This document shows, in pieces, positions 2,497-20,939 of a stretch of DNA of 21,686 bases; positions within the stretch are counted from its first letter, which is position 1; each line of letters begins with the position of its first letter. The notes under the pieces were generated by a model. That model ran no database searches and had not been told where the DNA came from. It saw nothing but the letters and a program-made list of their open reading frames with translations. The DNA lies in the IMG/VR virus record IMGVR_UViG_3300030108_000665, positions 1 to 21,686 of that record; one strand, given 5' to 3'. A program made the position numbers and the translations under genes. Source of the stretch: a virus.

Positions 2497-3729
2497 ATGG
2501 CATCAACATACACACCTTTAGGAGTAGAACTTCAGGCTACTGGTGAAAACGCTGGTACATGGGGAACTAAAACTAATACAAATTTACAAATTATAGAACA
2601 AATTTCAGGTGGATATACAACGCAAGCAGTTAATGGAACTGGCGCTACTACGTTATCAGTTTCTGACGGATCAACTGGTGCAACTTTATCTCATAGAATG
2701 ATCGAGTTTACTGGTACAATTACTGGAAATATAACTGTAACTATACCACTTGATGTTCAAAATTTTTATTTTTTAAGAAACTCAACTTCAGGTTCATACA
2801 CAGTTGAATTTAAATATGTATCAGGAAGTGGTGACTCGTTTACTTTCGCAGCAGCAGACAAAGGAGATGCTCTTGTATTTGCTACTGCAAATGATGGAAC
2901 TAATCCAGATATTGATACTTTACCAGCTGGAGATGTATCATTAACAGGAACACAAACTTTAACAAACAAAACCTTAACATCACCTAAAATAGGAACTTCT
3001 ATCTTAGATACTAACGGAAATGAATTAGCTCTTTTAACAGCAACAAGTTCAGCTGTTAATGAAGTTACATTAGCAAACGCTGCAACAGGAAATAACCCAT
3101 CTTTCGCAGCAACAGGTGGAGACACAAATATTGGTATTGATCTTAAAACAAAAGGAAGTGGTGTAATTAAAGCTGAAGATAGTGGTGGAAACGTATCTGC
3201 CATTAAAATAGCAGGTAAAGAAACTATATGGGTTCCAGCTGCAGCTATGTATGCAGCGACAACTAATGGAGCTGATGCAGAACAAGTTGAAACAACAGCA
3301 ACAAGACCAGATATGAAAGTATTTGATTTTGATGCAAGTACAAAACAATATACACAATTTACAATAGCTATGCCTAAATCATGGAACGAAGGTACTTTAA
3401 CTTACCAAGTTTATTGGGCACCTAGCACGACTAATACAGGAAATGCTATTTTTGGTTTAGAAGCAGTTGCATGTGCAGATGGTGATACTATCGATGTTGC
3501 ATATGGAACAGCTATAGAAGTCACAGACGCAGGTATAGGAACAGTTGAAGATCAACAAATTACATCTGAAAGTAGTGCTATGACAGTTGCGGGTTCTCCT
3601 GCAGCAGGTGAACAAACTTATTTTCAACTATACAGAGACGCAGCGGATGGTAGTGATACTTTTACTGGTGAATGTAGAGTTCTAGGTATTAAATTATTCT
3701 TTACTACTGACGCGGCTAACGACCTGTAA
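2497..3729 (+). CDS. Tail fibre protein (410 aa)
   Basis: The N-terminus has the features of a phage fibre attachment region, with PLGVELQATGEN at residues 7-18 and WGTKTNTNLQIIEQI at about 22-36. The phrase TLTNKTLTSPKI at residues 154-165 is a recurrent motif of phage tail fibres, here followed by a Thr/Ala/Gly-rich stretch with DLKTKGSGVIKA at about 215-226. The remaining C-terminal part (about 240-410) looks like a compact beta-rich head, with an acidic receptor-type composition. The start is set by AGGAG at 2485-2489, overlapping the TAG stop of the previous gene and 7 bases before the ATG. The protein probably forms fibres that contact the host surface; the receptor cannot be told from sequence. 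Confidence 0.8.
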   Translation: MASTYTPLGVELQATGENAGTWGTKTNTNLQIIEQISGGYTTQAVNGTGATTLSVSDGSTGATLSHRMIEFTGTITGNITVTIPLDVQNFYFLRNSTSGSYTVEFKYVSGSGDSFTFAAADKGDALVFATANDGTNPDIDTLPAGDVSLTGTQTLTNKTLTSPKIGTSILDTNGNELALLTATSSAVNEVTLANAATGNNPSFAATGGDTNIGIDLKTKGSGVIKAEDSGGNVSAIKIAGKETIWVPAAAMYAATTNGADAEQVETTATRPDMKVFDFDASTKQYTQFTIAMPKSWNEGTLTYQVYWAPSTTNTGNAIFGLEAVACADGDTIDVAYGTAIEVTDAGIGTVEDQQITSESSAMTVAGSPAAGEQTYFQLYRDAADGSDTFTGECRVLGIKLFFTTDAANDL

Positions 3730-3740
3730 GGAATTTAAAT

Positions 3741-4769
3741 ATGAGAGAATTAAAAAATAAACTTACTACAGGTAAGAACACAAAAAACATTCAAAGAAGA
3801 AAAAGTAAATCATTCGGTTATCAAGTTTTAGGATTTGGTTCGGGTAGCGGAAAAGCAATATTAAGCGTAGAATATTTAGTCGTTGCTGGAGGCGGTGGAG
3901 CTAACCCAACTGTTTATAGTGGACTTGCGGCAGGAGCTGGTGGTTTTAGAACTTCGGTTGCAAGTGCAACATCAGGTGGTGGTGCTTCAGCAGAACCCCC
4001 TTTTGAAGCAGAATATGGAACTGCTTACACAGTTACAGTAGGAGCTGGAGGCCCTTCTCAATCAACTATTGGTTTATCTTACACACAACAAGGTGCAAGC
4101 GGAAAAGGTGTTAGTTCAGTTTTTGCTACTGTCACTTCTATTGGAGGTGGTGCAGGTACTTATTTTCAAGCTGATAAAGATGTAGATATGAATGACGGTG
4201 GTTCAGGTGGAAGTGGACCTGATTTAGGACCACCTAATCCCCCATCCACAACAGGACAAGGAACACCAGGACAAGGATTTAGAGGAGGATTTAACGATGT
4301 TGCCAGTCAAGGCGGAGGCGGCGGAGCTGGTCAAATAGGACTTAACGGATCTGCTACTCCTGGTGGCCCAAGGTCAGGTGGAGATGGTGGAGATGGTGTA
4401 CAATCTGCAATCAATGGTTCTGCAACTTATTACGCTGGAGGTGGCGGTGGTGGAAATTGGTCTTATGGTGACCCTACCCCTGCTCAAGGCGGAGGCGTTG
4501 GTGGCCTTGGTGGTGGCGGAAATGGAGCGTCATCTTATACACCAGCTACGGCTTCAGCTGGAGGAACAAATACTGGAGGCGGCGGAGGCGGAAGTTCTGG
4601 AGCTCCTGTTGCACCATTTATGGGTAAAGCCGGCGGATCAGGTCTTGTTGTAGTTAGATACGCTGATACTGTGCCTGATGCATCAGCAACAAATGGAACT
4701 AAAACAACAACACCTGGATATAAAGTTTATACATTTACACAGTCAGGAAGTATTACATTTAATCAATAA
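3741..4769 (+). CDS. Glycine-rich tail adhesin-like protein (342 aa)
   Basis: A basic N-terminus (residues 1-40, many Lys and Arg) precedes the phrase EYLVVAGGGG at residues 44-53, the hallmark opening of a glycine-rich domain found in many phage tail proteins. Several polyglycine tracts follow up to about residue 300, then SGLVVVRY at about 300-307 and a C-terminal beta segment ending in ITFNQ. The layout resembles receptor-binding adhesins that stack polyglycine helices, such as the gp38 class of T-even phages, but this is analogy. It contains several Pro-Gly and Pro-Pro pairs near 163-178 in the Gly-rich part. It lies between a tail fibre and a conserved marine phage protein. The preceding Shine-Dalgarno is AAGGA at 3729-3733. 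GC content is raised by GGN codons. Confidence 0.7.
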   Translation: MRELKNKLTTGKNTKNIQRRKSKSFGYQVLGFGSGSGKAILSVEYLVVAGGGGANPTVYSGLAAGAGGFRTSVASATSGGGASAEPPFEAEYGTAYTVTVGAGGPSQSTIGLSYTQQGASGKGVSSVFATVTSIGGGAGTYFQADKDVDMNDGGSGGSGPDLGPPNPPSTTGQGTPGQGFRGGFNDVASQGGGGGAGQIGLNGSATPGGPRSGGDGGDGVQSAINGSATYYAGGGGGGNWSYGDPTPAQGGGVGGLGGGGNGASSYTPATASAGGTNTGGGGGGSSGAPVAPFMGKAGGSGLVVVRYADTVPDASATNGTKTTTPGYKVYTFTQSGSITFNQ

Positions 4770-4771
4770 TC

Positions 4772-5230
4772 ATGGCTCATTTTGCAAAAATAGATTCTAA
4801 CAATAAAGTGGAGACAGTAATTGTTGCTCCTGATCAAGCTTATGTTGACTCATTAGGTGGGAGATGGATTCAAACTTCTTATAATACTTTAGCTGGAGTG
4901 CATTATGATCCTATTACTGGACAACCATCTGCTGATCAATCAAAAGCTTTAAGAAAAAATTTTGCAGGTATAGGGGCAAATTATGATGAATCTAGAGATG
5001 CTTTTATATCAGATCAACCTTATCCTTCATGGACTTTAAATGAGACTTCATGTATTTATGAACCACCAGTTGCAATACCGACAATTTGGACATATGCAAC
5101 AGACGAAAGAGAAGATGAAATTTTTAAATTTACAGATTGGGACGAACCTAATTTAAGATGGATTGCAATAAAACAAGACGATACTAATATATATTGGGAT
5201 CCTAATACTACTAGTTGGGTTTCATATTAG
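4772..5230 (+). CDS. Conserved marine phage protein of unknown function (152 aa)
   Basis: The protein opens MAHFAKIDSNNKVE and contains WIQTSYNT near residue 32, LRKNFAGIGANYD at about 61-73, and YPSWTLNE at about 84-91. I recognise this combination from cyanophage and other marine phage tail regions, where it has no assigned role. There is no membrane segment, signal peptide or catalytic motif. It starts two bases after the stop of the glycine-rich adhesin and has no clear Shine-Dalgarno, so translation probably depends on coupling to that gene. The position suggests a tail-fibre accessory or assembly factor; this is inference. The end is followed by the only gap (38 bases) before the oxygenase cassette. 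Confidence 0.6.
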   Translation: MAHFAKIDSNNKVETVIVAPDQAYVDSLGGRWIQTSYNTLAGVHYDPITGQPSADQSKALRKNFAGIGANYDESRDAFISDQPYPSWTLNETSCIYEPPVAIPTIWTYATDEREDEIFKFTDWDEPNLRWIAIKQDDTNIYWDPNTTSWVSY

Positions 5231-5231
5231 A

Positions 5232-5270
5232 TTGACATTTTTTACATTTATTGTAAATTAAATTTATAAT
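5232..5270 (+). promoter_or_regulatory. Candidate promoter/operator before the oxygenase cassette
   Basis: The 38-base gap holds TTGACA (5232-5237), a perfect dyad TTTACA-5-TGTAAA (5241-5257) and TATAAT (5265-5270). TTTACA at 5241-5246 is 18 bases from TATAAT, giving a plausible sigma70 promoter, but its transcript would start inside the first oxygenase gene, whose ATG is at 5269. TTGACA pairs 16 bases away only with the poorer TAAATT (5254-5259), which would give a normal short leader. The dyad could bind a regulator. The base composition is so AT-rich that chance matches are likely. Confidence 0.35.
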
Positions 5271-5760
5271 GGTTAAGAAAGTAAAATACAGAGTAGAAGA
5301 TTTTTTTATAACTAATGAAGAATTAAAAAATATTCAACAAGTAATATTGAACAAGAATTTTCCTTGGTACTGTTCAGTTGGAGTGTCTTCTGCCATGAAT
5401 AAAGATGGAGTGTATTTTACACACATGCTCTATCAAGATAAAATTACTTCAGAACACACATCAATAGTTGATCCTATTTTAAAAAAATTAAAAGCTTTTT
5501 GTATAAAAAGAATAAAAGTTAACATGTACCCTGCAACTCATAAAATTTTTGAACATGAAAAACATAGAGATTATCCCGAAAAACATAAAGGTTTTTTATT
5601 TTATATAAATAACAATAATGGTTTTACCCGTATGAGTGATAAAACTAAAATTGAAAGTAGAGAAAATAGAGGTTTATTTTTTGATCCTAGTGATTTTCAC
5701 AATAGTTCAACATGCACAGATGAGCCCTACAGAATAAATATTAATTTTAATTATGTATAA
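5269..5760 (+). CDS. 2-oxoglutarate/Fe(II) oxygenase, HxD type, 163 aa
   Basis: This small protein has the iron-binding facial triad of the double-stranded beta-helix oxygenases: H99-R-D101 and the distal H144 in the phrase DFHNSS. R155, eleven residues after H144 in EPYRININF, is placed to bind the 2-oxoglutarate carboxylate. Such enzymes couple decarboxylation of 2-oxoglutarate to hydroxylation of a substrate, which here is unknown. At 163 residues it is near the lower size limit, little more than the catalytic core. It is the first of five oxygenase genes. There is no good Shine-Dalgarno (GGAGA-like sequence absent), and TATAAT overlaps the ATG. Its stop overlaps the next start as TAATG. 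The family assignment rests on the motif and on overall pattern. Confidence 0.72.
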   Translation: MVKKVKYRVEDFFITNEELKNIQQVILNKNFPWYCSVGVSSAMNKDGVYFTHMLYQDKITSEHTSIVDPILKKLKAFCIKRIKVNMYPATHKIFEHEKHRDYPEKHKGFLFYINNNNGFTRMSDKTKIESRENRGLFFDPSDFHNSSTCTDEPYRININFNYV

Positions 5761-6425
5761 TGACTGAACAAGTTTTATATAAAGTAATTAAAAATGCAAT
5801 TTCTAAAGAATTAGCTGAGTTTTGCTATGAATATTTAAGACTAAAAAGTAGAGCCGTTGCCATTATGTACAATAGAAAAGAATTTACTAAACGTAATGTG
5901 TATTTAGGTTATTTTAATGATCCTCAGGTTCCAGGTTGCTATAGCATGTATGCAGATCCTGTAATGGAAACATTACTAATAAAAGTATTACCTAAATTAG
6001 AAGAGTGTTTAGATAAAGAATTAGTTCCAACGTATTCTTATTGTAGATTTTATAGAAAAGGAAATGAACTAAAAAGACATAAAGATAGAGACAGTTGTGA
6101 AATATCCACCACACTACATTTGGGTGGAGACCCGTGGCCTATTTATGTAGAACCAGATCATACAAAAGGAAGAGATACTCCTAATGGATACATGTCTGAA
6201 CAAACAAAAGGAGTTCAGATAGACTTAGAACCTGGAGACATGTTAATCTATTATGGGAGAGAAATAGAACATTGGAGAGAACCTTTTAAAAAAGATAAAT
6301 GTGCTCAAGTTTTTCTTCATTATAATGATTTAAATGGTGCATTGAAAGATACTAATTTATTTGATGGAAGATTGGAATTAGGTTTACAATCAGTTGGAAA
6401 AAAACTAGATGTTCCTAAAACATAA
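5760..6425 (+). CDS. 2-oxoglutarate/Fe(II) oxygenase, prolyl-hydroxylase-like, 221 aa
   Basis: The core runs from YSYCRFYRKG (residues 92-101) into RHKDRD, giving the ligands H107 and D109. LEPGDMLIYYG at about 156-166 is the usual strand before the distal ligand, which I assign to H171 in EIEHWREPF. A second histidine, H187 in VFLHYND, lies in the last core strand. This EHWR type is common in cyanophages and other marine phages, where it is annotated as 2OG-Fe(II) oxygenase; the substrate is not known. The C-terminal 30 residues extend beyond the core. The start overlaps the previous stop as TAATG at 5758-5762. The next gene begins 17 bases before the end of this one. Confidence 0.8.
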   Translation: MTEQVLYKVIKNAISKELAEFCYEYLRLKSRAVAIMYNRKEFTKRNVYLGYFNDPQVPGCYSMYADPVMETLLIKVLPKLEECLDKELVPTYSYCRFYRKGNELKRHKDRDSCEISTTLHLGGDPWPIYVEPDHTKGRDTPNGYMSEQTKGVQIDLEPGDMLIYYGREIEHWREPFKKDKCAQVFLHYNDLNGALKDTNLFDGRLELGLQSVGKKLDVPKT

Positions 6426-6930
6426 GAAAGTTAATATTAATAAATTTTTAGAAGAAATGAAAAAGTGTAAAACAGTAAATGTAAATTGTGATTTATTAAA
6501 ATCAAAATCTACACAAGGAGTTAATTCTTCTCAAATAGAGTTAATTAATATAAGTAAATTGTCTAAACTATTTCTAGAAGCTATGAAAGATCTTATAGAA
6601 ATTAATAATTTAAAACCTACTTCTTGTTGGAGTGTTTCTGGAGACGAGGGTTCTTATCATAGAATACATAGACACCTACCTTTTAATGGAGAGAATGTAG
6701 AAAAAACTAATAGAATATCTACAATTTTATATTTGGATGTACCCTCTAAAACTAAAATAGCAGATGGAGATTTTTACTTTGTTATAAAAGAAGATGATGA
6801 AATAAGATCATATAGTATTGAGCCCAAGGTAGGTGATTTTATAGTCATGTCTGCAAATGTATTTCACGGAACTTATCCACAAAGCAAAGGTTTAAGAAGA
6901 ACTTTAAACATGGATTTTATTTATGCATAA
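6409..6930 (+). CDS. Probable 2-oxoglutarate/Fe(II) oxygenase with HxH motif, 173 aa
   Basis: The second half has the outline of an oxygenase core: SYHRIHRHLPF with H87-R-H89 in place of HxD, VGDFIVMSANVFHG with distal H153, and GLRRTLNMDF, where R163 or R164 could bind 2-oxoglutarate. A His in the second ligand position is seen in one putative 2OG-oxygenase family (2OG-FeII_Oxy_5), but there is an extra H84, so the ligand pair could be H84/H87 or H87/H89. Residues 1-70 are Lys-rich and helical and not recognised. The ATG at 6409 lies inside the upstream gene; a second ATG at 6457 is possible and would remove 16 residues. The frame overlaps the next gene by 8 bases. Confidence 0.6.
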   Translation: MFLKHKKVNINKFLEEMKKCKTVNVNCDLLKSKSTQGVNSSQIELINISKLSKLFLEAMKDLIEINNLKPTSCWSVSGDEGSYHRIHRHLPFNGENVEKTNRISTILYLDVPSKTKIADGDFYFVIKEDDEIRSYSIEPKVGDFIVMSANVFHGTYPQSKGLRRTLNMDFIYA

Positions 6931-7585
6931 ATTTGAAAAATTAAAATTATTTACACCAATAATTTATACTCTTAAAATAGATCCAAAATCTTTTGATAAA
7001 CAAAAACTTATAAAAACTATTACTGCTAATTATAAAAAACAACCAGAAAGAAATTTTTTTGATGGAAAGTCTGAATTAGGTAGATCTAATTCGCACCATA
7101 CCTATAATGATAATACTAATGAAAAATTTAAAAAAATAAATTTTGAATCTTTAATAAAAGTTTATAGTAAAATTTTTAAATTATTTTTTGATAATGAATT
7201 TAAAGCCTCTAAACCATTTAAATATACTTATTCAATAGAAAATGCTACTGCAATGGGTAAAGATCAATACATGAATTCTCATTGTCATTTACCAAGTTCT
7301 TTTTCTTGTGTTCATTATTTAAAAATAAATGAAAATAATTCAGGAATAACTTTTAAAAATCCAAATAATCTATCTGAAACCATGCAATGGGTAGCCCCTA
7401 AATCATATAATATTTTAAATAAAATAGATTCTAGTAATAGTTATTTTTTTCCTACTTTTAATTTAATACCTAAAGAAGATACAATGTTAATTTTTCCTTC
7501 TACATTACATCATGCGGTAGGAAGACAAATTAGTGGTAAAAATCTTAGAATTAGTGTAGCAACCAATATAACATTAGATGAATAA
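6923..7585 (+). CDS. Putative 2-oxoglutarate/Fe(II) oxygenase (Oxy_5-like), 220 aa
   Basis: The motif order fits the 2OG-FeII_Oxy_5 family: MNSHCHLP with H120 and H122, SSFSCVHYLK as the following strand, IFPSTLHHAVG with distal H197, and LRISVATNI with R209. The family signature FPSxLxHxV is met exactly. This family is widespread in marine bacteria and phages and its substrate is not established. Residues 1-100 form a Lys- and Phe-rich N-terminal region. The gene is the most AT-rich in the window: by hand count 94 of 420 bases (22%) are G or C between 7021 and 7440. It overlaps its neighbours by 8 bases on both sides (ATGCATAA and ATGAATAA). Confidence 0.75.
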   Translation: MHKFEKLKLFTPIIYTLKIDPKSFDKQKLIKTITANYKKQPERNFFDGKSELGRSNSHHTYNDNTNEKFKKINFESLIKVYSKIFKLFFDNEFKASKPFKYTYSIENATAMGKDQYMNSHCHLPSSFSCVHYLKINENNSGITFKNPNNLSETMQWVAPKSYNILNKIDSSNSYFFPTFNLIPKEDTMLIFPSTLHHAVGRQISGKNLRISVATNITLDE

Positions 7586-8174
7586 AAAAATACAAAGTTC
7601 AGTTTGGACATTTGAACTAGATAAAGTTAATTTGTTTGCTTATTGGGACAGATTATTTACTCCAGAAGAATGTGCTCATATAATTAAAATAGGAAAAAAA
7701 CTTTCTTTAGAAAAAGGTAAGGTATCAACCACAAATCCCAAAGAAGATTACAAAATAAGAAAAAGTAAAGTTTCTTGGATTTATCCTGAAAAAGAAACTA
7801 GATTTATATTTGAAAAAATTAGTAAAACTGTATTAAATTTAAATGAAAGATTTTTTGGTTTTGATGTAACTTCAATGTCCGAAGGATTTCAATTTACAAA
7901 TTATAAAGCTCCTGGATCTCATTATGGTAAACATATAGATAGATCTCAAGAAAGTTTACCAAGAAAACTTTCGATATCAGTTCAACTTACAGATCCCTCT
8001 AAATACAGTGGAGGAGATTTAATACTTCACGATGGTCCAGAACCGATTGTAATGAGAAAACAAATAGGGGACTTAGTTGTATTTCCAAGTTATGTTCTTC
8101 ACGAAGTTACTCCTGTAACTAAAGGTGAAAGAAATTCACTAGTTTGTTGGGTAACGGGTCCTAGTTTTAAATAA
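7578..8174 (+). CDS. PKHD-type 2-oxoglutarate/Fe(II) hydroxylase, 198 aa
   Basis: This is the clearest oxygenase of the five. It shows YKAPGSHYGKHIDRS with H119 and D121, LSISVQLTDPSKYSGGDLIL at 131-150, IGDLVVFPSYVLHEVTPV with distal H175, and GERNSLVCW with R185 for 2-oxoglutarate. The order and the phrases GGDL, FPS and HEVTPVTKGER match PKHD-type hydroxylases such as bacterial PiuC and the prolyl 4-hydroxylase core. The likely reaction is hydroxylation of a protein or small molecule. An opening FxxxxCxxII-type segment (residues 27-37) is also usual for the family. It is the last gene of the cassette; a promoter candidate for the next module follows directly. Confidence 0.87.
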   Translation: MNKKIQSSVWTFELDKVNLFAYWDRLFTPEECAHIIKIGKKLSLEKGKVSTTNPKEDYKIRKSKVSWIYPEKETRFIFEKISKTVLNLNERFFGFDVTSMSEGFQFTNYKAPGSHYGKHIDRSQESLPRKLSISVQLTDPSKYSGGDLILHDGPEPIVMRKQIGDLVVFPSYVLHEVTPVTKGERNSLVCWVTGPSFK

Positions 8175-8203
8175 TTGATATCTAAATAAAAAGCAGATAT
8201 AAT
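8175..8203 (+). promoter_or_regulatory. Sigma70-type promoter candidate for the second structural module
   Basis: TTGATA at 8175-8180 (5 of 6 to consensus) and TATAAT at 8198-8203 (6 of 6) are separated by exactly 17 bases, the optimum. They lie in the 37-base gap after the oxygenase cassette. Transcription would start at about 8209-8211, at most a few bases before the ATG at 8212, so the message would be leaderless or nearly so. It would drive the nozzle gene and those that follow. Confidence 0.55.
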
Positions 8204-8211
8204 GAGCTACT

Positions 8212-10422
8212 ATGCTACAAAAGATAGGATTTCAACCAGGTATTAATAAACAATTAACTTCCACAGGGGCAGAAGGTCAGTGGGTTGATTGTGATAATGT
8301 TAGATTTAGATATGGCACACCAGAAAAAATAGGTGGCTGGAATCAATTAGGTAACATTAATCAGAACGAATTAACTGGAGCAGGAAGAGGACTACATCAT
8401 TTCTTAAATAGTTTATCTCAAAGGTATGCAATCATAGGGACAAATAGAATTTTATACGCTTTTCAAGGGGGTGTATTTTATGACATCCACCCTATTAAAA
8501 CTACAACAACACTTTCAAATGCTTTTAGCACAACTAATGGATCATCAGCAGTAACACTTACTTTTAGTACTGCACATAATATATCTGTAGGAGATATAAT
8601 TTTACTAGATAATTTTTCTACAATAACTGGATCAAACTTTGGATCATCTGATTTTGACGATAAAAAATTTATGGTTACAACTGTGCCTACAGGCACAACA
8701 TTAACAATTACTATGCCATCAAATGAATCTGGATCTGGTGCAACAACATCAGGTGGAATAAGAGTTCAACATTATTATCCTGTGGGTACTGCTGTTCAAG
8801 AAAAAGGTTATGGTTGGAGTCTTGGATCTTGGGGTGGAGAAGCTTCAAACGCCGCAACTACAACTTTAAATGGAGCATTAGGAGACAACGCATTTGGAAC
8901 TGGAGGTTCAGGAACATCAATTGTTTTAGCAGACGCTACACAATTTCCTGACTCAGGAACAAATTTTATAAAAGTAGGAACTGAAGAAATTTCATACACT
9001 GGAATTACGGGTGGTACAACATTAACAGGAATTACAAGAGCAGTTAGAGGAACAACAAGAGCAGCTCACAGTGATGGAGCAACTGTAACCAACACAAGTG
9101 ATTTTACTGCATGGAACGAACAAACATCTGAAGGTCTTGCACTAGATCCAGGTATGTGGTCATTAGATAATTTTGGTGATAAAGCAATTTGTTTAATTCA
9201 CGATGGTCCTGTTTTTGAATGGAATTCTGCTGCAGCAAATGCTGTTAGCACAAGAGCAACAATCATAACTGGCGCACCAACTGCATCTAGACATATGGTT
9301 GTATCTACACCTGATAGACACTTAGTATTTTTTGGAACCGAAACAACTATTGGAGATACAGGAACTCAAGATGATATGTTTATTAGATTCTCAGATCAAG
9401 AAGATATAAACACTTACACACCAACAGCAACCAATACCGCTGGTACACAAAGACTGGCCGATGGATCACGGATCATGGGAGCTATAAGAGGTAAAGATGC
9501 AATTTATCTTTGGACAGACAATGCTTTATTTACACAACGTTTTGTTGGTCAACCATTTACTTTTGCTTTTGCACAAGTTGGAACTAACTGTGGACTTGTT
9601 GGACAGAACGCATGTGTTGAAGTTGATAATACTGCATATTGGATGTCAAAAAATGGTTTCTTTAGGTATGCTGGTAGATTAGAATCACTACCTTGTTTGG
9701 TAGAAGATTTTGTATATGACGATATAAATTTAACATCAGGTAATCAATTAGTATCAGCTGGTTTAAATAATTTGTTTGGTGAGGTTGTATGGTTTTATCC
9801 TTCTGGAACATCAGATGTTGTTAATAAAATGGTTACTTATAATTATTTTGATTCATCACCACAAAGATCAGTATGGACTGTGGGCACATTAGCAAGAACT
9901 ATGTGGAGAGATTCTGCAATATTTGGTTTACCACATGCATTACAATATGATGCATCAACTGATACATCTTTTGATGTTGTTGGTAATACTGAAGGTAGAA
10001 CAGCATACTATGAACATGAAACAGGAACAGATCAAAATAGAAATGGAACTATAACAGCTATCGCTTCAAACATAACATCTGGAGATTTTGATATTAGTCA
10101 AAGAAGAGGTATAACAGGACAATCTACAGGTATAGCTGATTTTAGAGGAGATGGTGAGTTTATAATGAAGATAAGAAGATTTATACCAGATTTTATATCG
10201 CAAACTGGTAACACACAAATTACATTACAACTAAGAGATTTTCCAAATGATGCAGCAGCAAGTTCTTCACTTGGACCATTTACAGTATCTTCATCAACAA
10301 AAAAAATAGATACACGTGCAAGAGCTAGAGCTATTGCTTTAAAAATAGCAAATACAAGTTCTTCACAAAGTTGGAAATTAGGAACTTTTAGGTTAGATAT
10401 ACAACCAGATGGACGTAGATAA
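8212..10422 (+). CDS. Tail nozzle / P22 gp10-like DNA-stabilisation protein (736 aa)
   Basis: The opening LQKIGFQPGINKQ and CDNVRFRYGTPEKIGGW (about residues 27-43) are typical of the P22 gp10-like family, whose members plug the tail below the portal and keep packaged DNA inside. The remaining fold is expected to be a beta-propeller, with RHMVVSTPDRHLVFFG near 359-374 and MSKNGFFRYAG near 479-489 as repeat-like blades. Two insertions are visible: residues 111-135 (STAHNISVGDIILLDNF) and about 227-292, a module with FPDSGTNFIKVGTEEISYTG that recurs in many phage structural proteins. The only Shine-Dalgarno is GAG at 8204-8206. The C-terminus has a beta segment ending GTFRLDIQPDGRR. I am fairly sure of the structural role, less sure of gp10 equivalence. 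Confidence 0.7.
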   Translation: MLQKIGFQPGINKQLTSTGAEGQWVDCDNVRFRYGTPEKIGGWNQLGNINQNELTGAGRGLHHFLNSLSQRYAIIGTNRILYAFQGGVFYDIHPIKTTTTLSNAFSTTNGSSAVTLTFSTAHNISVGDIILLDNFSTITGSNFGSSDFDDKKFMVTTVPTGTTLTITMPSNESGSGATTSGGIRVQHYYPVGTAVQEKGYGWSLGSWGGEASNAATTTLNGALGDNAFGTGGSGTSIVLADATQFPDSGTNFIKVGTEEISYTGITGGTTLTGITRAVRGTTRAAHSDGATVTNTSDFTAWNEQTSEGLALDPGMWSLDNFGDKAICLIHDGPVFEWNSAAANAVSTRATIITGAPTASRHMVVSTPDRHLVFFGTETTIGDTGTQDDMFIRFSDQEDINTYTPTATNTAGTQRLADGSRIMGAIRGKDAIYLWTDNALFTQRFVGQPFTFAFAQVGTNCGLVGQNACVEVDNTAYWMSKNGFFRYAGRLESLPCLVEDFVYDDINLTSGNQLVSAGLNNLFGEVVWFYPSGTSDVVNKMVTYNYFDSSPQRSVWTVGTLARTMWRDSAIFGLPHALQYDASTDTSFDVVGNTEGRTAYYEHETGTDQNRNGTITAIASNITSGDFDISQRRGITGQSTGIADFRGDGEFIMKIRRFIPDFISQTGNTQITLQLRDFPNDAAASSSLGPFTVSSSTKKIDTRARARAIALKIANTSSSQSWKLGTFRLDIQPDGRR

Positions 10423-11106: not shown

Positions 11107-13062
11107 ATGGCAATAACTAACGCACAGCAATTTAAACAACTTGTAAACCCACCAATGAAAGGTAAGAAAAGACCTGGATATCGTGGTGTTGGTGAATATC
11201 GTGGAGGGCCTGGAGGTTCTGGGGGAGGCAAAGGAAAAGAGGCACCAGGATCAAAAGGATCTAAATTTGAAGGTGGACAAAATGTTGGAAAAGATTCGGA
11301 TCTAGATAGAGCACGAGAAGTTTATCAAGCAAATCAAACTTTAAAACTATTAGCAGAAGATAAAGCACAAGAACCATTTGAAACTTTAATAATTAAAGAT
11401 AGTAATCTTCCTGGATTTTTAGGCATGGGACTTGACGCATTAAAAGGTCCTAGACAATTTATGTTAAATAAAAATGTAGATTATTTTAGAGGATTAAAAT
11501 CAAGAGGTAGACTCAATGACCCCAACAACAGATATAGCGCAACTGCACAAGGTTATAAAAATTATATGGCCGATAGATTAGCAGGTAAAATAGATGCTAC
11601 GGGTAATCCACTTAATCAGGAAGACGATGATAATCAAATTTTTATACCACAAGGTATTATGACAGCTCAAGAACCAGAGTTCATGAACCAAGAAACAAAA
11701 GACCAAGACGAAGGTTTAAGATTAGCTTTTAGAGCTGATGGTGGACGTATAGGATTTAGAAGAGGAGGTAGACGAGGTGACACTGGACAAGCTAGTTATA
11801 GTGAGTCCCCATCATTCTCAAGACCCGATGATTCAGGGCCTTCAACTCCGCCACCAAGTGTAATTAATCCACCACCAAAAGAACCAACTGGTGGCGGTGG
11901 CAAAGGACCTGAAACATTTCAAATGGTAAACCCTACTTTTAAAAAATCATTATTTGAAGATGAATTAAGATTAGAAAAATTTATAAACAAAATAGAATTA
12001 GAAAATCGTCTTAAAGAACAGGAAGGAGATCAAACAGTGCAAGACTCACTAACGAGAGGAGAGGGAATAGATATATCTAATATTATTAGAAATGCACCGC
12101 AGATTAAACAAAGAATAAGTAATACTGTCTCTGGAATAATGTCTAATCCTGAAATTGCTAACCTTGGTACGGCAAAAACATTTAAAGCTATGGGTGGACT
12201 AGCTGATGGTAATTTTGATTTCGAATCAGCAAGACAAATGTATGGTCTAGGTAAACTTGTTAAGAAAGCAACCAGAGCTGTTAAGAAAATTGCAAAGTCA
12301 CCGATAGGTAAAGCTGCATTGTTATATGCAGGAACAGCAGGATTGGGAGCTTTAGGTGCAGGAGCTGCTAGAGCAGGAACAGGATTTGGAATATTTGCAC
12401 CAAGTAATGTTTTAAGTAATTTGGGAGCTACAAAAGCCCTTTTTACAAATAAACTTTTTGGAGATATCGTAGCACCTAGCATGACACGAACAGGAGGATT
12501 ATTATCTAAAATTCCAGGTGGTGGTGTAACAGCAGGTATAGTTGGAACATCATTATTAGCAGGATTACTAACAGCAGAACAGGAAGAAGAGGCACAAGAA
12601 TTATCAAGAGGTGAGGGCATAGATATAGAAGCAGCTAGACAATCTATTTTAGCAAGAGCACAAGGTAATATTGGAGGTGATCTTAGAATGCTTTCTGCTA
12701 GAGCAAGTGGTGGTAGAATAGGTTATCAAGAAGGATCAAAAGAACCAGTGGCTAAGAAAACTATGCCACTATTAGATATGGGTGGACAAGAGATGGATTT
12801 AAGAGCTGAAGGTGGATTTGTACCAATAGGTAGAATGGAAAAAGCAGACGATGTGCCTGCAAGATTATCCAAAAATGAATTTGTATTTACAGCTGATGCT
12901 GTAAGAAATGCAGGTGATGGAGATGTAGACAAAGGCGCAGAAGTTATGTATAACATGATGAAGAACCTCGAATCCGGGGGTGACGTATCTGAAGAATCGC
13001 AAGGATTAGAAGGCGCAAGAAAAATGTTTCAAACATCACAAAGATTAGAGGAAGTATTATAA
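11107..13062 (+). CDS. Putative internal virion / structural protein with GGRIG repeats (651 aa)
   Basis: The N-terminal third is basic and Gly-rich (PGYRGVGEYRGGPGGSGGGK at about 23-42). Two copies of LxRGEGIDI occur at 315-323 and 499-507. Two hydrophobic Ala/Gly-rich segments lie at about 400-424 and 473-488 and could insert in membranes. Short motifs RADGGRIGF (209-217), RASGGRIGY (about 532-540) and RAEGGFVPIG (566-575) recur, and a conserved C-terminal block runs from there through DDVPARLSKNEFVFTADAV to about residue 632. I recognise the C-terminal block from uncultured marine phage structural regions, without a defined role. Membrane segments and position before the ejection-type genes suggest an internal virion protein. 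It ends in a TAATG overlap with the next gene. Confidence 0.55.
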   Translation: MAITNAQQFKQLVNPPMKGKKRPGYRGVGEYRGGPGGSGGGKGKEAPGSKGSKFEGGQNVGKDSDLDRAREVYQANQTLKLLAEDKAQEPFETLIIKDSNLPGFLGMGLDALKGPRQFMLNKNVDYFRGLKSRGRLNDPNNRYSATAQGYKNYMADRLAGKIDATGNPLNQEDDDNQIFIPQGIMTAQEPEFMNQETKDQDEGLRLAFRADGGRIGFRRGGRRGDTGQASYSESPSFSRPDDSGPSTPPPSVINPPPKEPTGGGGKGPETFQMVNPTFKKSLFEDELRLEKFINKIELENRLKEQEGDQTVQDSLTRGEGIDISNIIRNAPQIKQRISNTVSGIMSNPEIANLGTAKTFKAMGGLADGNFDFESARQMYGLGKLVKKATRAVKKIAKSPIGKAALLYAGTAGLGALGAGAARAGTGFGIFAPSNVLSNLGATKALFTNKLFGDIVAPSMTRTGGLLSKIPGGGVTAGIVGTSLLAGLLTAEQEEEAQELSRGEGIDIEAARQSILARAQGNIGGDLRMLSARASGGRIGYQEGSKEPVAKKTMPLLDMGGQEMDLRAEGGFVPIGRMEKADDVPARLSKNEFVFTADAVRNAGDGDVDKGAEVMYNMMKNLESGGDVSEESQGLEGARKMFQTSQRLEEVL

Positions 13063-15009: not shown

Positions 15010-18000
15010 ATGGTATCTCCATACGATCCAAATCAACTTTCTAAACAAGAAGAAAACAACGAAACTAATTTAGCTGTATCTATTGCATCTGGTATTGGTT
15101 CTGGTTTAATAAAAATACCTGTTGGTTTAGCGTCTGTTGCTGCAGAAGTTTATGATGCAGTTAAGGGAGAGGGTGTTGAGATTGAAGATAGTGCGGTCGC
15201 TAGATTAGAAAAATTTATAGATGATAGTGTAGTGGGTGATGTATTATCTGGACTAGAAGAAAAAGCTAGAGACACAGCAGCAGGAAGAATTACAGAAGCA
15301 TTAGTTCAAGTGGGAATACCAGCAGCACGGGGTGCAAAAATAGCTGGACAAATATCTACAAAATTAATCCGTAAAATTAAAAGTGGTAAAAGAGTATCAT
15401 TACAAGGTAAAACAGCTAAAAATTTAAATAAAGGTCAAGTACAAGCAGGTAAATTAAATAGAGCAGCTGGAGTGGCTAGATTTGCAGCAACCACAACTGG
15501 AGGTGCAGCTGGAGCTTCCTTAGTTTATGACATAGAAGACATTGGAACTTTTGGAGATATTTTTGTAGAGGGACCAACAGCTTTAGATGGAGATGCTAAA
15601 AATGATACTGAAGATGAAGCATTACGTAGATTAGAAAACAGAGCTAAATTTTTTGTTGAAGGTGTTTTTGTTGCACCTTTTGCATACGGTGCAGGCAAAC
15701 TTGCAGGATTAATTGGTAAAAAAGGTAAAGAACTTGCATTTAGTAATTCACAGTTTGAAAGATTTGTTGATAAATATATTGCTGCTCCGTTTAGACCAAG
15801 AAGTAAAAAATCACAAGAGTTGTTTGAAGCAGGTATGAGAGTTGAAGGACAAGAGGGTGCAAGTGCAATTGTTGCAAAAGATTTAGTAAAAGATATTGAT
15901 GATTCATTTAAAAAAATTTTTGATAAATCTACACCAGCAGCAGATAGAATAAAAAACAAAGATGAACTATTAACTCAAATGGATAGTTTATTAAAAACAA
16001 GTAAAGATAGAATCGCAGGAAATGAATTTAGATTTGCAGGTTTTAATGAAAAAAAATTAAAAGATTTTTATCAATCTTTAGACAATATAAAAGTTTCTAA
16101 AAAACAACAAGACGCTTTAGTATCTACTTTAATAAATTCTAAAAATGCTTTTAATAGACTTCAAACAGATTTGTTACAAGGTGGCAATCTTACAACAAGT
16201 AACAAAGATGAATTGTTACAGTTTTTTAGTAATAGATTAAAATCCACACTATCAAATGACTATAAAATATTTGAAAATAGTAAAATATTTAAATCATCAA
16301 ACTATGTTCCAACAGATGAAAAAAGATTAGCTGTTGCACAGGTATTTCAAAATTATGCAAAAGCAAATAAAGTTAAAAATTACGGAGAAAAAGATGCATT
16401 ATTAGATGTTAATAAGGTTTTAGATAATGTAAAAATGGATAAGGTGACTAAATCACCAGTGTTTGATTTTGAAAGTAAGAGTGCCTTTTATGACGGTGTT
16501 GTTCAAAAAGCAAATATTGCAAAACTAATAACTACAAATAAATTTGATAAAAAAGATTTAATTACATCACAACAAGATTTAAAAGCATTTAGAGAATTAT
16601 TTGGTGAAATAAAAGACGCTAGAAGAACTATTGTTAACAATATGCAAGCTATGACTGCTGTCACAGCAAAAGATAAATTTTATAATACTATCGCACAAAG
16701 CGGTAAGATTGTTTTTGATAACCCAACGAAAGCACAATTAAATTTACCTAACAGACCTGGATATACAAGAAGCAGGTTTGGTATGCAGATTAAATCTCCT
16801 CTTGGAGAAGAAATATATACTAACCCTATGAATGGTAAATTTACTTCATCGGAGTATGAAGAAGCAATTAAGTTTGCTGAAAAAATGGTATTTGATGGCT
16901 TTATGAAAGAAAATATTTATAGATACGGTATAGCTGTTCCAAAAGGACTTGCACAAGTTGCAAAAACAGTTTTAGGTCCTTTTACACACATGCGTAACTT
17001 TACAAGTGCTGTAGCATTTAGTTATGCCACTGGTAATTTATTTAAAAATCCTGCATTTATTTTACAAAATTTTAGAAAATCTTTTAATACAATACAACCA
17101 CAATTATTATATAGGAACTTGCCAGAGGATCAGGCATTTTATAGATTCTTATTAGATGAAGGTGTGGTTAATTCAAGTTCTACATTTCAAGATGTACAGG
17201 GTTTATTAAAAGATATTGCAAAAGGTGGTGATCTTGTCGATAGAGTTTTTGGAAAACTTGGTAAAAGAATGACAAAAACTTTTAGAGCTGCACAAGATTT
17301 ATATGTTGCAGAGGATGATTTTTATAAAATATATAACTATCTTGCAGAGTTTGATAATTTAAAAGGTGCATACAAAGGTGCTATTCCTGACATAGAACTT
17401 GCAAAAAGAGCGGCTAATATTGTTAGAAACACGGTGCCAAACTATGCATATGTATCTGATTTTGTAAAAGGTCTACGTAGATCACCTTTAGGTAATTTTG
17501 TATCATTTCCTGCAGAGATAATTAGAACTTCTATGAATATTGCTCAACAAGGTGTTAGAGAATTAAAAGATCCTGCATTACGAAGTATTGGTGCAAGAAG
17601 ACTAATTGGTTTTGGAACAGGTGTAGCTATCATACCACCAACAGTAACAGAAATGTTTAGAGGTATGTACGGTATTACAAGAGATCAGGTTGCAGCAATC
17701 AGAAGATTTTTACCTGAATGGTCTAGAGAATCTACAATTATTCCTAACAAAGATAAAGATGGTAACTTATATTATACAGATTTTAGTCATGGTTTTGCTT
17801 ATGATACTGTCGTTAACCCTATACAAGCTCTTGTAGCAAACGTTGAAGGTAATGAAGAAGGACCTTTAATGGCTGATCTTGTAACAGGTGTTGCAAAAGG
17901 TGCTGGTAGATTAGTAGAACCATTTATAAGTGAATCTATTTGGACTCAAGCAATAGCCAATTTGTTTGTAAGAAAAGGTAGAACAGCAGAAGGTAACCAA

Positions 18001-18810
18001 CTATGGAATCCAGAAGACTTTGAGGGAAACAAAATGTTTGGTGGATTAAAACATTTATCAGAAGCATTAGCTCCTTTTTCTTTTCAACAGTTACAAAGAT
18101 TAGGTCAAGCTGCTATATTTGGTGAAGATCCTAAAACAGGACAAGATTTAAGTGTAGGGGGTGAACTTGCAGGATTCTTTGGTTTTAGAAATATTAAATT
18201 AGATATTCCAAGATCATTAAATTTTAAAATATCTGCTTATAATACAACACTTAGAAATAGTAGAAGATTTCTACCAAGGGCAGAAGGTAATGTAAAAGGT
18301 GATGATATAGTTCAAGGTTTAATTACTGGTAATGATAGTTGGATGCAAGGTATGAAAGATATGAAAAAAGACATAAAGGGAATGGAAGATTTAGGTTTCT
18401 CAAACAAAGAAATTGCAACTATATTTGATAGAAGAGGATTAGGTCAGGATTACGGATTTTTAAAAAAAAATAAATTTAAACCATTTCAAATACCAAGAGG
18501 TTTAGTTGAAGCATACATAAGAAATGCAAAAGAAAATAATTATAATAATCCAATGTCAAAAGAAACATTTAATAAAATAAAATTAATTATAAAAAATTTA
18601 TCAAGAATTTCTTTAGACGATCCTTTTCCAGATTTAGGTATTCAATTAGAAAGAATGAGTAGTTTTAAACTACCAACCGCTGCACTACCACAAACACCTA
18701 TGCCAATGGTACAACCAAAAGCGCAAGTAGTTAATCCAAATACTAACTTGACACAAACAGAACAGGCGTTACTATCACCAGAAGAACAAGTTATAGCGAG
18801 CAGAACATAA
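15010..18810 (+). CDS. Giant internal virion / DNA-ejection-type protein (1266 aa)
   Basis: This is the largest protein in the window, at the size and position of the big ejection proteins of podoviruses. Hydrophobic, Gly/Ala-rich stretches at about 21-49, 154-173 and 215-236 could insert in the host envelope. A long Lys-rich helical middle (about 245-640) follows. Then come RYGIAVPKGLAQVAKTVLGP at about 638-657 and the phrases GNFVSFPAEIIRTS near 830-843 and RLIGFGTGVAIIPPTVTEMF near 868-887, which I recall from similar large marine phage proteins. I see no transglycosylase or protease motif, although T7 gp16 carries a lytic domain. Start support: AGGAG at 15000-15004, overlapping the previous TAG stop. 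The end overlaps the lysis-region gene as TAATG. Confidence 0.6.
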   Translation: MVSPYDPNQLSKQEENNETNLAVSIASGIGSGLIKIPVGLASVAAEVYDAVKGEGVEIEDSAVARLEKFIDDSVVGDVLSGLEEKARDTAAGRITEALVQVGIPAARGAKIAGQISTKLIRKIKSGKRVSLQGKTAKNLNKGQVQAGKLNRAAGVARFAATTTGGAAGASLVYDIEDIGTFGDIFVEGPTALDGDAKNDTEDEALRRLENRAKFFVEGVFVAPFAYGAGKLAGLIGKKGKELAFSNSQFERFVDKYIAAPFRPRSKKSQELFEAGMRVEGQEGASAIVAKDLVKDIDDSFKKIFDKSTPAADRIKNKDELLTQMDSLLKTSKDRIAGNEFRFAGFNEKKLKDFYQSLDNIKVSKKQQDALVSTLINSKNAFNRLQTDLLQGGNLTTSNKDELLQFFSNRLKSTLSNDYKIFENSKIFKSSNYVPTDEKRLAVAQVFQNYAKANKVKNYGEKDALLDVNKVLDNVKMDKVTKSPVFDFESKSAFYDGVVQKANIAKLITTNKFDKKDLITSQQDLKAFRELFGEIKDARRTIVNNMQAMTAVTAKDKFYNTIAQSGKIVFDNPTKAQLNLPNRPGYTRSRFGMQIKSPLGEEIYTNPMNGKFTSSEYEEAIKFAEKMVFDGFMKENIYRYGIAVPKGLAQVAKTVLGPFTHMRNFTSAVAFSYATGNLFKNPAFILQNFRKSFNTIQPQLLYRNLPEDQAFYRFLLDEGVVNSSSTFQDVQGLLKDIAKGGDLVDRVFGKLGKRMTKTFRAAQDLYVAEDDFYKIYNYLAEFDNLKGAYKGAIPDIELAKRAANIVRNTVPNYAYVSDFVKGLRRSPLGNFVSFPAEIIRTSMNIAQQGVRELKDPALRSIGARRLIGFGTGVAIIPPTVTEMFRGMYGITRDQVAAIRRFLPEWSRESTIIPNKDKDGNLYYTDFSHGFAYDTVVNPIQALVANVEGNEEGPLMADLVTGVAKGAGRLVEPFISESIWTQAIANLFVRKGRTAEGNQLWNPEDFEGNKMFGGLKHLSEALAPFSFQQLQRLGQAAIFGEDPKTGQDLSVGGELAGFFGFRNIKLDIPRSLNFKISAYNTTLRNSRRFLPRAEGNVKGDDIVQGLITGNDSWMQGMKDMKKDIKGMEDLGFSNKEIATIFDRRGLGQDYGFLKKNKFKPFQIPRGLVEAYIRNAKENNYNNPMSKETFNKIKLIIKNLSRISLDDPFPDLGIQLERMSSFKLPTAALPQTPMPMVQPKAQVVNPNTNLTQTEQALLSPEEQVIASRT

Positions 18811-18986: not shown

Positions 18987-19459
18987 ATTTGAGTCGTAAC
19001 TTCACCCTTCAAGAGCTTATTAAATCGGACACTGCGATCAGGTTAGATATTAATAACAATCCTAACTCAGGTCAGATTGAAAAATTAAAAGCATTGTGTG
19101 AAAATATTCTTCAACCGGTTCGAGACCATTTTGGCAGAGTAAAAGTGACTAGCGGATTTCGTTCTGAACAACTTTGTTTAAAAATAGGTAGCTCTGTAAA
19201 TTCACAGCACGCCAAGGCCGAGGCCGCAGACTTCGAATGTATGGGCACAGACAATGCAGAATTAGCTGACTGGATTTATTCAAACCTAGATTTTGATCAA
19301 TTAATATTAGAGTTTTATACACCAGGAGAACCAAACAGTGGGTGGATACACTGCAGCTATACTACTGATCAACCAAGAAAACAATTTTTACATGCTTTTA
19401 AATCAGAGGGTAAAACTAAATACAAACCAGTATTAGGAAAGGCAAAAGATATAGTCTAG
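18983..19459 (+). CDS. M15-type peptidase, probable endolysin (158 aa)
   Basis: The protein has the complete zinc motif of peptidase M15 (DD- or LD-carboxypeptidase-like, M15_3 family): TSGFRS at 56-61, QHAKAEAADF with zinc ligands H76 and D83, LILEFY with the catalytic E110, and WIHCSY with the third ligand H123. Such enzymes cleave peptide cross-links or stems of peptidoglycan and in phages serve as endolysins. At 158 residues it is a single catalytic domain without a cell-wall binding part or signal peptide. It therefore would need a holin to reach the wall, which agrees with the membrane protein encoded upstream. The gene overlaps the convergent helicase gene through a shared CTAG at 19456-19459. 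Confidence 0.85.
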   Translation: MNLSRNFTLQELIKSDTAIRLDINNNPNSGQIEKLKALCENILQPVRDHFGRVKVTSGFRSEQLCLKIGSSVNSQHAKAEAADFECMGTDNAELADWIYSNLDFDQLILEFYTPGEPNSGWIHCSYTTDQPRKQFLHAFKSEGKTKYKPVLGKAKDIV

Positions 19460-20886
19460 ATCCATTCTTTCATTTCTTCTCCCATAACTTCTGATGCTAT
19501 GTTTATTTTTTTACGTAAAGCTTCTACAATCTTTTCATCAATTGTATCTTCAGCTATTAAATCAATATAAGTTACATTTTTCTTCTGTCCTATTCTGTGT
19601 GCTCTGTCCTCTGACTGTAATCTTTTCTCAAGGTCATAACCATTAGAATAGTAAACAACTGTATTTGCTTTTGTGAGTGTAATACCATACCCACCAGTCT
19701 GTGGCGTGCCTATTATAAATCTACATTCCGGACCATTTTGAAACTTACGAATATTATCTTGTCTATCTTCTTGTGGTGTCAAACCATAATAATCTACAAT
19801 AGATTCTTCACCGTATTTTTCTACAATATTTTTTATTATTTGGTTTACATCTCTTTGATAGTTAGCCCATATAATAACTTTACCCTCCGTCTCTTCTAAT
19901 ATATTCATTAATTCTTTTATTCTATTGTTGTCTATTAATTGCGTAGTACCATCATCAGCAGTAAAATGACCACAAGTTATTTGATGTAATCTCATAAGCT
20001 GAGTTAACACAGTCATGGTGGTTGTAACTTTACCATTTAATATAGCCATAGCTGCTTTCTTCATCTGCTCGTATATTTTTCTTTGGTCATGTGTAAGCAC
20101 AATATGTCTTTTAGTAAAATTTTTAGGTGGTAAATCTAAACAATCTTCTTTTAACACTCTATCTGAAAATGTTTTTACAATGTCTGATAACTCACTAAGA
20201 TTTTGAAACTTACTTACAACTTGTATAGATCTGCCTCTTACATGCATTGTTTTCATAATTGCATATCTGTTTCTAAAAGAATAGTAGGAAGCATGATCTA
20301 ATAAATAAGGATCTAAAAAATAACACTGTGTATATAAATCTAATGGATTTTTTGTAATAGGAGATCCTGTCATTATTCTTCTGTATTTTGCTTTTTCTCC
20401 TAAATCTATTATATTTCTAGTTCTTTTAGCAGTGGGTGTTTTTATAGTGGTTGACTCATCTATAGCCATTAAAACTTTATGTGAATTTAAAAATTTAGAA
20501 GCAAATTTAACACCTTTATCTGTAGATAAAGCCTCAACATTCATAATTAAAATGTGTAAAGCAGTTTCTATTTCAAATAAAGAATTTAATTTTTCTTCCT
20601 GACTTTTTGTAATATTTGGTTGCCACAATACAGTTACATTTTCTATATGATTTGGTAAATGTGTAGGTAATTCTTGTTCGTACCAAGTCTTAACAACACC
20701 TTTTGGTGCAATAATTAAGGCACCATCAATCTTACCTTTGTCATACAACATAGCAACATTGTCTATTAATACTTTTGTTTTACCTGTCCCCATTTCCATA
20801 AAATAAGCGTAGTTTTCTTTGTTCCATGACTTTTTTAAAGCAGTTAATTGATGCTCATATGGTTTTGTTTTAAATTTATAATTCAT
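19456..20886 (-). CDS. SNF2-family DEAD-like helicase/translocase (476 aa)
   Basis: All main superfamily 2 motifs are present. Numbered from the chosen start: MGTGKT at 32-37 (Walker A), DEST at 143-146 (Walker B), MTGSP at 172-176 (motif III), GTPQTGGYGITL at about 393-404 (motif V) and QSEDRAHRIGQ at 424-434 (motif VI). The last is the SNF2 signature. It probably remodels or translocates along phage DNA during replication, recombination or transcription. I chose the ATG at 20886 because AGAAAGAAG precedes it and because a start at 20913 would lie upstream of the likely transcription start in the palindrome. It is the only minus-strand gene and is convergent with the lysis genes. Some phages carry similar stand-alone helicases of unknown exact role. 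Confidence 0.88.
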   Translation of the reverse strand: MNYKFKTKPYEHQLTALKKSWNKENYAYFMEMGTGKTKVLIDNVAMLYDKGKIDGALIIAPKGVVKTWYEQELPTHLPNHIENVTVLWQPNITKSQEEKLNSLFEIETALHILIMNVEALSTDKGVKFASKFLNSHKVLMAIDESTTIKTPTAKRTRNIIDLGEKAKYRRIMTGSPITKNPLDLYTQCYFLDPYLLDHASYYSFRNRYAIMKTMHVRGRSIQVVSKFQNLSELSDIVKTFSDRVLKEDCLDLPPKNFTKRHIVLTHDQRKIYEQMKKAAMAILNGKVTTTMTVLTQLMRLHQITCGHFTADDGTTQLIDNNRIKELMNILEETEGKVIIWANYQRDVNQIIKNIVEKYGEESIVDYYGLTPQEDRQDNIRKFQNGPECRFIIGTPQTGGYGITLTKANTVVYYSNGYDLEKRLQSEDRAHRIGQKKNVTYIDLIAEDTIDEKIVEALRKKINIASEVMGEEMKEWI

Positions 20887-20906
20887 AATTTTCTTCTTTC
20901 TATGGG

Positions 20907-20939
20907 TTGACATATAATCCAGGATGCATTATATGTCAA
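20907..20939. promoter_or_regulatory. Perfect 12-bp inverted repeat: likely divergent promoter/operator
   Basis: TTGACATATAAT at 20907-20918 is repeated in exact inverted form at 20928-20939, with a 9-base spacer. Each arm contains TTGACA followed directly by TATAAT. Read across the repeat, both strands show TTGACA, 17 bases, TATATG (20930-20935 on the plus strand, 20916-20911 on the minus strand). Symmetric transcription in both directions is therefore possible, with starts near 20942 and 20904. It sits between the only divergent gene pair, helicase and the 119-residue gene. It may also bind a dimeric regulator or form a hairpin in RNA. Confidence 0.6.

Follow-up and report, generated by a model that had tools for sequence, protein, structure and literature searches.

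Eight non-orthologous 2-oxoglutarate (2OG) oxygenases, co-located with a "ferrochelatase", have been described in HTVC023P-type pelagiphages and read in terms of heme and iron (Wittmers et al., 2022, PMC9599517), and a seasonal time series relies on the same labels (PMC11561400). Pelagiphages of this type rank with the most abundant marine viruses, the HTVC023P type making up about 7.6% of viromic reads (PMC12753301). Fe(II) oxygenases are listed among the genes that recur in metaviromic islands for host recognition (PMC3909814), and PHD-like folds were found with Phold to be widespread in marine phages (PMC12774648). Many divergent 2OG oxygenases per genome are also carried by the Synechococcus phages S-SCSM1 (24, at most 44% identical; PMC9602691) and S-CREM1 (10, at most 41% identical; PMC9964418); these are myoviruses, and the S-SCSM1 genes are mostly scattered, to judge by their open reading frame numbers. 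The locus considered here consists of five consecutive genes, OX1 to OX5, in the IMG/VR virus record IMGVR_UViG_3300030108_000665, a fragment of 22,463 bp of which positions 1 to 21,686 were analysed (the window). It shares its enzyme families and viral neighbourhood with the system of Wittmers et al. (PMC9599517). There, however, the oxygenases are described as close by without being adjacent and their partner is taken for a heme enzyme, whereas here the genes are contiguous and the partner appears to be a 2OG oxygenase itself.

All five genes almost certainly encode 2OG oxygenases making up one cassette. This cassette is one member of a lineage-wide, exchangeable island; it is ordinary in size and belongs to a known kind of system.

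Family assignment and active sites

The five genes of the cassette are:
5269..5760, + strand: OX1, 163 aa, phrog_274; predicted 2OG-Fe(II) oxygenase
5760..6425, + strand: OX2, 221 aa, phrog_2954; predicted 2OG-Fe(II) oxygenase
6409..6930, + strand: OX3, 173 aa; HxH-type 2OG-Fe(II) oxygenase; PHROG 81 2.7e-15, PF13759 1.7e-4
6923..7585, + strand: OX4, 220 aa; HxH-type 2OG-Fe(II) oxygenase, TIGR02466-like; PF13759 3.9e-11
7578..8174, + strand: OX5, 198 aa; PKHD-type 2OG-Fe(II) oxygenase; PF13640 2.3e-15

The initial annotation had proposed five divergent, tightly coupled 2OG-Fe(II) oxygenases at this place, and the open reading frames were found with the positions and lengths it gave. Each gene overlaps the next (OX1/OX2 by 1 bp, OX2/OX3 by 17 bp, OX3/OX4 by 8 bp, OX4/OX5 by 8 bp), leaving no gaps. 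The G+C content is 25-28% at window positions 5001-8000 and about 28-44% elsewhere in the window. The assertion that the genes are not recent duplicates also holds, as an all-against-all blastp of OX1 to OX5 yields a single match below 1e-3, between OX3 and OX5 over 27 aa.

The 2OG assignment rests on Pfam matches above the curated cut-off for OX4 and OX5, on the profile of the 2OG family PHROG 81 for OX3, and on AlphaFold2 models searched with Foldseek for OX1 and OX2. PHROGs place OX3, OX4 and OX5 in 2OG families; the PF13759 match of OX3 and the TIGR02466 match of OX4 (4.7e-12) fall under the respective cut-offs. In sequence searches of the PDB, OX5 matches the PKHD hydroxylase 3dkq (6e-11) and PiuC. 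It resembles PKHD-type hydroxylases (PiuC/YbiX, 3dkq) in PF13640 and in the HxD..H..R pattern, although it stays under the NCBIfam PKHD equivalog cut-offs. Pfam 2OG matches are weak for OX1 (0.01) and OX2 (0.05), and the PHROG families of these two proteins are named "DNA endonuclease V" (phrog_274, 4e-37) and "ferrochelatase" (phrog_2954, 8e-52).

Because these labels contradicted the initial annotation, OX1 and OX2 were chosen for structure prediction; a PDB sequence search with their profiles gave nothing usable, so that a structural route was needed. The AlphaFold2 models have a mean pLDDT of 93.3 (OX1) and 92.2 (OX2), and both show a 2OG oxygenase fold. Foldseek searches of the PDB returned for OX1 a Dictyostelium PHD, Pseudomonas putida P4H, human PHD2 and a chlorella-virus collagen prolyl hydroxylase, and for OX2 P. 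putida P4H, PHDs including PHD2, and MysH, OkaE, HygX and SnoN. Among the matches listed, all are 2OG oxygenases or their relatives, with no ferrochelatase for OX2. P4H and PHD2 are the best structural matches of both proteins, at identities of just 8-18%; for OX2 the best entries are 4j25 and 4iw3, with a TM-score of about 0.5 and 14% identity. The models thus predict with high confidence a prolyl-hydroxylase-type 2OG oxygenase fold for OX1 and OX2. Ferrochelatase was rejected for OX2, which has no such match in Pfam or NCBIfam up to an E-value of 1, a 2OG oxygenase fold and an invariant HxD..H. Endonuclease V/DenV (pyrimidine-dimer glycosylase) was rejected for OX1, given no such Pfam match up to an E-value of 1 and the PHD/P4H-like fold. 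Fold, triad and the lack of Pfam ferrochelatase or endonuclease matches together indicate that both labels are wrong for these proteins.

The metal ligands named in the initial annotation are present, HxD in OX1, OX2 and OX5, and HxH in its place in OX3 (H87/H89) and OX4 (H120/H122). The OX1 triad is H99/D101/H144, accompanied by R155; in an alignment of 27 homologues from viral contigs HxD..H is invariant and R155 nearly so. The OX2 triad H107/D109/H171 is invariant across 43 homologues from viral contigs, and that of OX5 is H119/D121/H175. As candidates for the arginine binding the 2OG carboxylate, R155 of OX1 and R185 of OX5 fit; OX3 has R163, and R173 of OX2 stands only two residues after the distal His. 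In OX4 the distal His would better be placed at H197, which lies in an L-x-H-x-V pattern; H196 was dropped, alignment column 196 not being conserved. HxH is the conserved form throughout the OX4 class of related islands, which suggests a three-histidine or altered metal site.

The two labels are widespread. Relatives of OX1 were found in 250 phage records, many of them called denV, and relatives of OX2 in 156, many called ferrochelatase. The "denV" proteins of P-SSM2 and S-SM1 retain HxD..H..R, and the "ferrochelatase" of S-PM2, HTVC008M and S-SM1 retains the triad. In the "endonuclease V" S-PM2p230 (L287:10575-11084) the first metal His is missing in the alignment, and this protein may be a degenerate oxygenase. 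A limited literature search found no paper correcting either label. New names are needed for the pelagiphage and cyanophage auxiliary genes now called "ferrochelatase" and "endonuclease V", and published heme and iron conclusions rest on "ferrochelatase" labels of proteins that, by predicted fold and triad, are 2OG oxygenases. In cellular genomes, relatives of OX2 are mostly found on phage contigs inside metagenome-assembled genomes or single cells. Lone relatives occur on Legionellales chromosomal contigs, by an ApbC-type gene and gyrB (L389) or by an ABC transporter and a HipA gene (L386); the neighbours of these few chromosomal genes give no clear functional lead.

An island between fibre and nozzle genes

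The genes around the cassette and the block that is exchanged with it are:
2497..3729, + strand: upstream tail-fibre-region protein g31104 (phrog_31104), left anchor of the island
3741..4769, + strand: Gly-rich fibre/adhesin protein; PF21722 (Gly_rich_2) 1.6e-15, residues 41-307
4772..5230, + strand: g7759 (phrog_7759), small protein in the gap between fibre and cassette; PHROG 2.3e-27
8212..10422, + strand: nozzle protein ("phage stabilization" protein, P22 gp10-like), anchoring the island on the right; phrog_3287 1.7e-92, relatives annotated as stabilization protein
3859..8346 (contig L046; to 8389 in L126): exchange module of the distal Gly-rich domain, g7759 and OX1 to OX5; 87% nucleotide identity

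As initially annotated, the cassette has fibre genes on one side and nozzle genes (P22 gp10-like) on the other. The nozzle protein is 45-48% identical to those of 023Pt_psg01, HTVC027P and HTVC023P, and the HTVC023P-type tail gene order is shared. Two Pelagibacteraceae single-cell phage contigs carry a similar island (L373 and L374, the latter with the same gene order), and the host is likely SAR11. Related contigs were fetched via the nozzle gene, independently of oxygenase content, and the 80 loci with the most similar nozzles were kept, so that the counts describe close relatives. The island was taken as the interval from g31104 to the nozzle, bounded on both sides in 54 loci, and oxygenases were scored with profiles built for this analysis. 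These were iterated, which makes drift possible; in a check of 120 cluster representatives at 1e-3, PF13640 was matched by 52 and PF13759 by 50 (sets that may overlap), and the classes poorly recognised by Pfam include OX1 and OX2, both backed by structures.

All 54 intervals contain oxygenase-profile genes, from two to ten (mean and median 5.0), with at least five in 30; after removal of near-duplicates, which leaves 42 loci, the median is still five. Of 189 pairs of neighbouring oxygenase genes, 96% are at most 10 bp apart (median -4), and oxygenase G+C content is below that of the nozzle gene in every locus (28% vs 38%). The gene order of the cassette, sought in other viral contigs, recurs in independent ones, and it is therefore no assembly artefact. 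The entire oxygenase set is flipped as a block in L244, L253 and L256, the flanking genes being the same.

One initial claim is not borne out, namely that five oxygenases in a row are out of the ordinary: five is the median of the lineage, and clusters of this kind are also found in HTVC008M and S-SM1. The T4-like pelagiphage isolate HTVC008M has five consecutive oxygenase-profile genes (gp72-gp68) by neck and baseplate genes, and the Synechococcus phage S-SM1 has nine in 6.3 kb (SSM1_051-061). Both runs are partly masked by the two wrong labels. They differ from the present island in belonging to T4-like myoviruses, in members and order, and in lacking the podovirus fibre-nozzle setting. Closer relatives (HTVC023P, HTVC033P, HTVC027P and 023Pt_psg01) carry three or four oxygenases at or near the equivalent position. 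A first-pass search of genomes with the PF13640 profile misses OX5 in its own record.

The island moves together with part of the fibre. Positions 3859-8346 align to L046, and 3859-8389 to L126, each as one block of about 4.5 kb at 87% nucleotide identity, while the flanking proteins of these contigs are only 40-47% (g31104) and 46-49% (nozzle) identical and some flanks have no detectable match. Within the block g7759 is 91-93% identical. The left edge falls at codon 40 of the Gly-rich fibre gene, at the start of Gly_rich_2, and the right edge 135-178 bp into the nozzle gene. The contrast between block and flanks implies that fibre domain, g7759 and OX1 to OX5 moved together. When 51 loci were compared, ten strongly fibre-matching pairs had all oxygenases in common, some of them with nozzles 80% identical. 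A strict one-to-one pairing of fibre and oxygenases was rejected, since it holds in one direction only (same fibre, same oxygenases).

Within a locus, oxygenases are never close paralogues: the maximum identity is 46% among 662 within-locus pairs. When the 218 oxygenases of 42 loci were dealt randomly, 11.4 pairs of at least 50% identity were expected, against none observed, and none of 1000 shuffles was as low, although part of this signal comes from position-specific orthologues. OX2 is present as a single copy in 37 of the 42 loci and as two copies in none. Such non-redundancy supports distinct tasks for the members of a cassette.

Possible targets of the island enzymes

Related islands also hold other modifying enzymes:
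L258:7453-8973, L236:5229-6611, L228:7442-8956, L249:2601-4022, L226:4348-5544: flavin-dependent tryptophan halogenases
L280:3036-4622, L271:6327-7901, L259:7534-8919, L221:4889-5701, L275:7569-8378: carbamoyltransferases and sulfotransferases

The 78 non-oxygenase clusters of the islands comprise 14 of Gly-rich proteins, five of tryptophan halogenases and three of carbamoyltransferases, together with sulfotransferases, O-methyltransferases and DUF6445. Halogenase matches reach 8e-109, and the nearest PDB sequence of one halogenase is VirX1 (6qgm, 4e-101), of which the window itself has no counterpart. Among island-gene Pfam matches at 1e-3 there is no glycosyltransferase, non-ribosomal peptide synthetase (NRPS) or polyketide synthase (PKS), and no DNA-processing gene was recognised by Pfam in the islands. 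Hydroxyl groups are common targets of carbamoyl- and sulfotransferases, and a scheme in which hydroxylation precedes decoration would be coherent. DUF6445 recurs (L258:5706-6374, L242:7207-7923); one member weakly matches 2OG-FeII_Oxy_3 (0.0036), and it may be a further 2OG oxygenase family.

The reading preferred here, to which slightly less than an even chance is given as a whole, is that of an exchangeable late "tailoring island" of SAR11-type podoviruses (HTVC023P-related) that chemically modifies the phage adhesion apparatus. The oxygenases would be made late in infection, from the late structural gene block, and would act as protein hydroxylases, as the PHD/P4H fold suggests. Each would oxidise its own residue or site on the fibre or its partners before virions are released; per turnover O2, Fe(II) and 2OG would be used, and succinate and CO2 given off. 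Elsewhere in the lineage, the same material would also be worked on by halogenases, sulfotransferases, carbamoyltransferases and methyltransferases. The outcome would be a receptor-binding surface whose chemistry can vary while its backbone sequence stays the same, or one that is stabilised. A virion or adhesin protein is tentatively taken as the main target, with something short of even confidence. The further notion that the islands amount to combinatorial post-translational chemistry rewriting the receptor-binding protein, with host range depending on chemistry in addition to sequence, is doubtful; it would give the island enzymes a role analogous to that of the tailoring enzymes of peptide natural products. 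Modification of the adhesion apparatus is supported by the 54 bounded loci, none selected for oxygenases, which all place the island between fibre and nozzle. Unrelated T4-like phages also put the same families by tail genes, as in S-PM2, where five oxygenases follow the short tail fibre gene gp12, and in HTVC008M (neck/baseplate). The initial annotation had envisaged hydroxylation of one product or of several virion or host targets. Of this, different, non-redundant activities are borne out by the lack of close paralogues relative to shuffled cassettes, and putative virion targets fit the joint transfer with the fibre and the company of tailoring enzymes. In the accessible parts of two virion proteome reports no oxygenase is named among the virion proteins (PMC9602691, PMC9964418), as would be expected of enzymes acting before assembly. 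A limited literature search on phage tail-fibre hydroxylation found no relevant report.

Several observations weigh against this reading. In the comparison of 51 loci, an OX5-OX4-OX2 core recurs with unrelated fibres, which points to a conserved target of the core, other than the variable fibre tip, and the co-transfer with the fibre may be explained by physical linkage alone. In P-SSM2 and S-H38 these families are found at a distance from the tail genes, or among DNA genes, and a relative of OX5 abuts or overlaps a helicase gene in many cyanophages. The small protein g7759 was also rejected as a dedicated substrate or partner, since 62 of 67 relatives with 2 kb available downstream have no oxygenase there.

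The persistence of the core trio with differing fibres would suit host-directed auxiliary metabolism, in which the enzymes use or signal via 2-oxoglutarate, iron or heme and so reprogram the infected cell. Roles in host metabolism have been proposed for cyanophages (PMC3037559) and pelagiphages (PMC9599517, PMC11561400), and iron uptake goes up during HTVC027P infection (PMC12753301). This is nevertheless judged unlikely: its heme part is built on a wrong label, OX2 having the predicted fold and triad of a 2OG oxygenase, the genes sit in a structural block, and 2OG consumption alone needs neither five to ten divergent enzymes nor the exclusion of duplicates. The trio's independence of the fibre would also suit hydroxylation of host proteins such as translation factors, and the structures nearest to OX2 (4j25, 4iw3) are of a Pseudomonas prolyl hydroxylase solved in complex with EF-Tu. 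That likeness of fold is generic, however, at the TM-score and identity given above, and this explanation, which accounts neither for the rapid turnover among the other members nor for the co-transfer with the fibre, is distinctly improbable.

Tailoring of small molecules or surface glycans, with a host metabolite, lipid or polysaccharide decorated to give a natural product or a block to superinfection, draws on the VirX1-like halogenases and the carbamoyl-, sulfo- and O-methyltransferases, typical of natural-product tailoring, and on the HygX, OkaE, MysH and SnoN matches of OX2. Since the islands show no NRPS, PKS or glycosyltransferase, lie within the virion gene block and move with the fibre, it too is regarded as improbable. 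Modification or repair of nucleic acids (AlkB- or TET-like, or by an "endonuclease V") is very improbable. It could call on the denV labels in the records with OX1 relatives, on the DNA repair suggested for cyanophage 2OG enzymes (PMC3037559) and on weak AlkB-like matches of OX2 and OX5 (PF13532 0.05; TIGR00568 0.027); OX1, however, has no Pfam endonuclease match and a prolyl-hydroxylase-like fold, and the islands no recognised DNA-processing genes. Renaming of the two families turns scattered "auxiliary metabolic genes" into one system of two to ten non-redundant oxygenases beside an adhesin, and the function of phage 2OG oxygenases becomes a question directly addressable by virion mass spectrometry.

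Promoter-like sites and other genes of the window

Two intergenic gaps hold promoter-like sequences:
5232..5270, + strand: sequences resembling a promoter in the 38-bp gap ahead of OX1, the best matching the consensus at 11/12; the second hexamer runs into the start codon of OX1
8175..8203, + strand: promoter-like TTGATA-17-TATAAT in the OX5-nozzle gap, 11/12 to consensus

Of the sigma-70-like sequences in the region these two score best; they are matches to a consensus and no proof of promoters. TTGATA of the site before the nozzle gene is kept in four contigs and TATAAT in three of the four, whereas the site before OX1 is only partly conserved in four contigs, less so than the other. No RNA families were found in the window. 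Downstream, the proteins of 1266 aa (15010-18810) and 651 aa (11107-13062) have no Pfam or PHROG match and, by their position, are probably internal virion or ejection proteins. A SNF2-type helicase gene lies on the - strand (19456-20913), and nowhere else in the window is there a clear change of strand.

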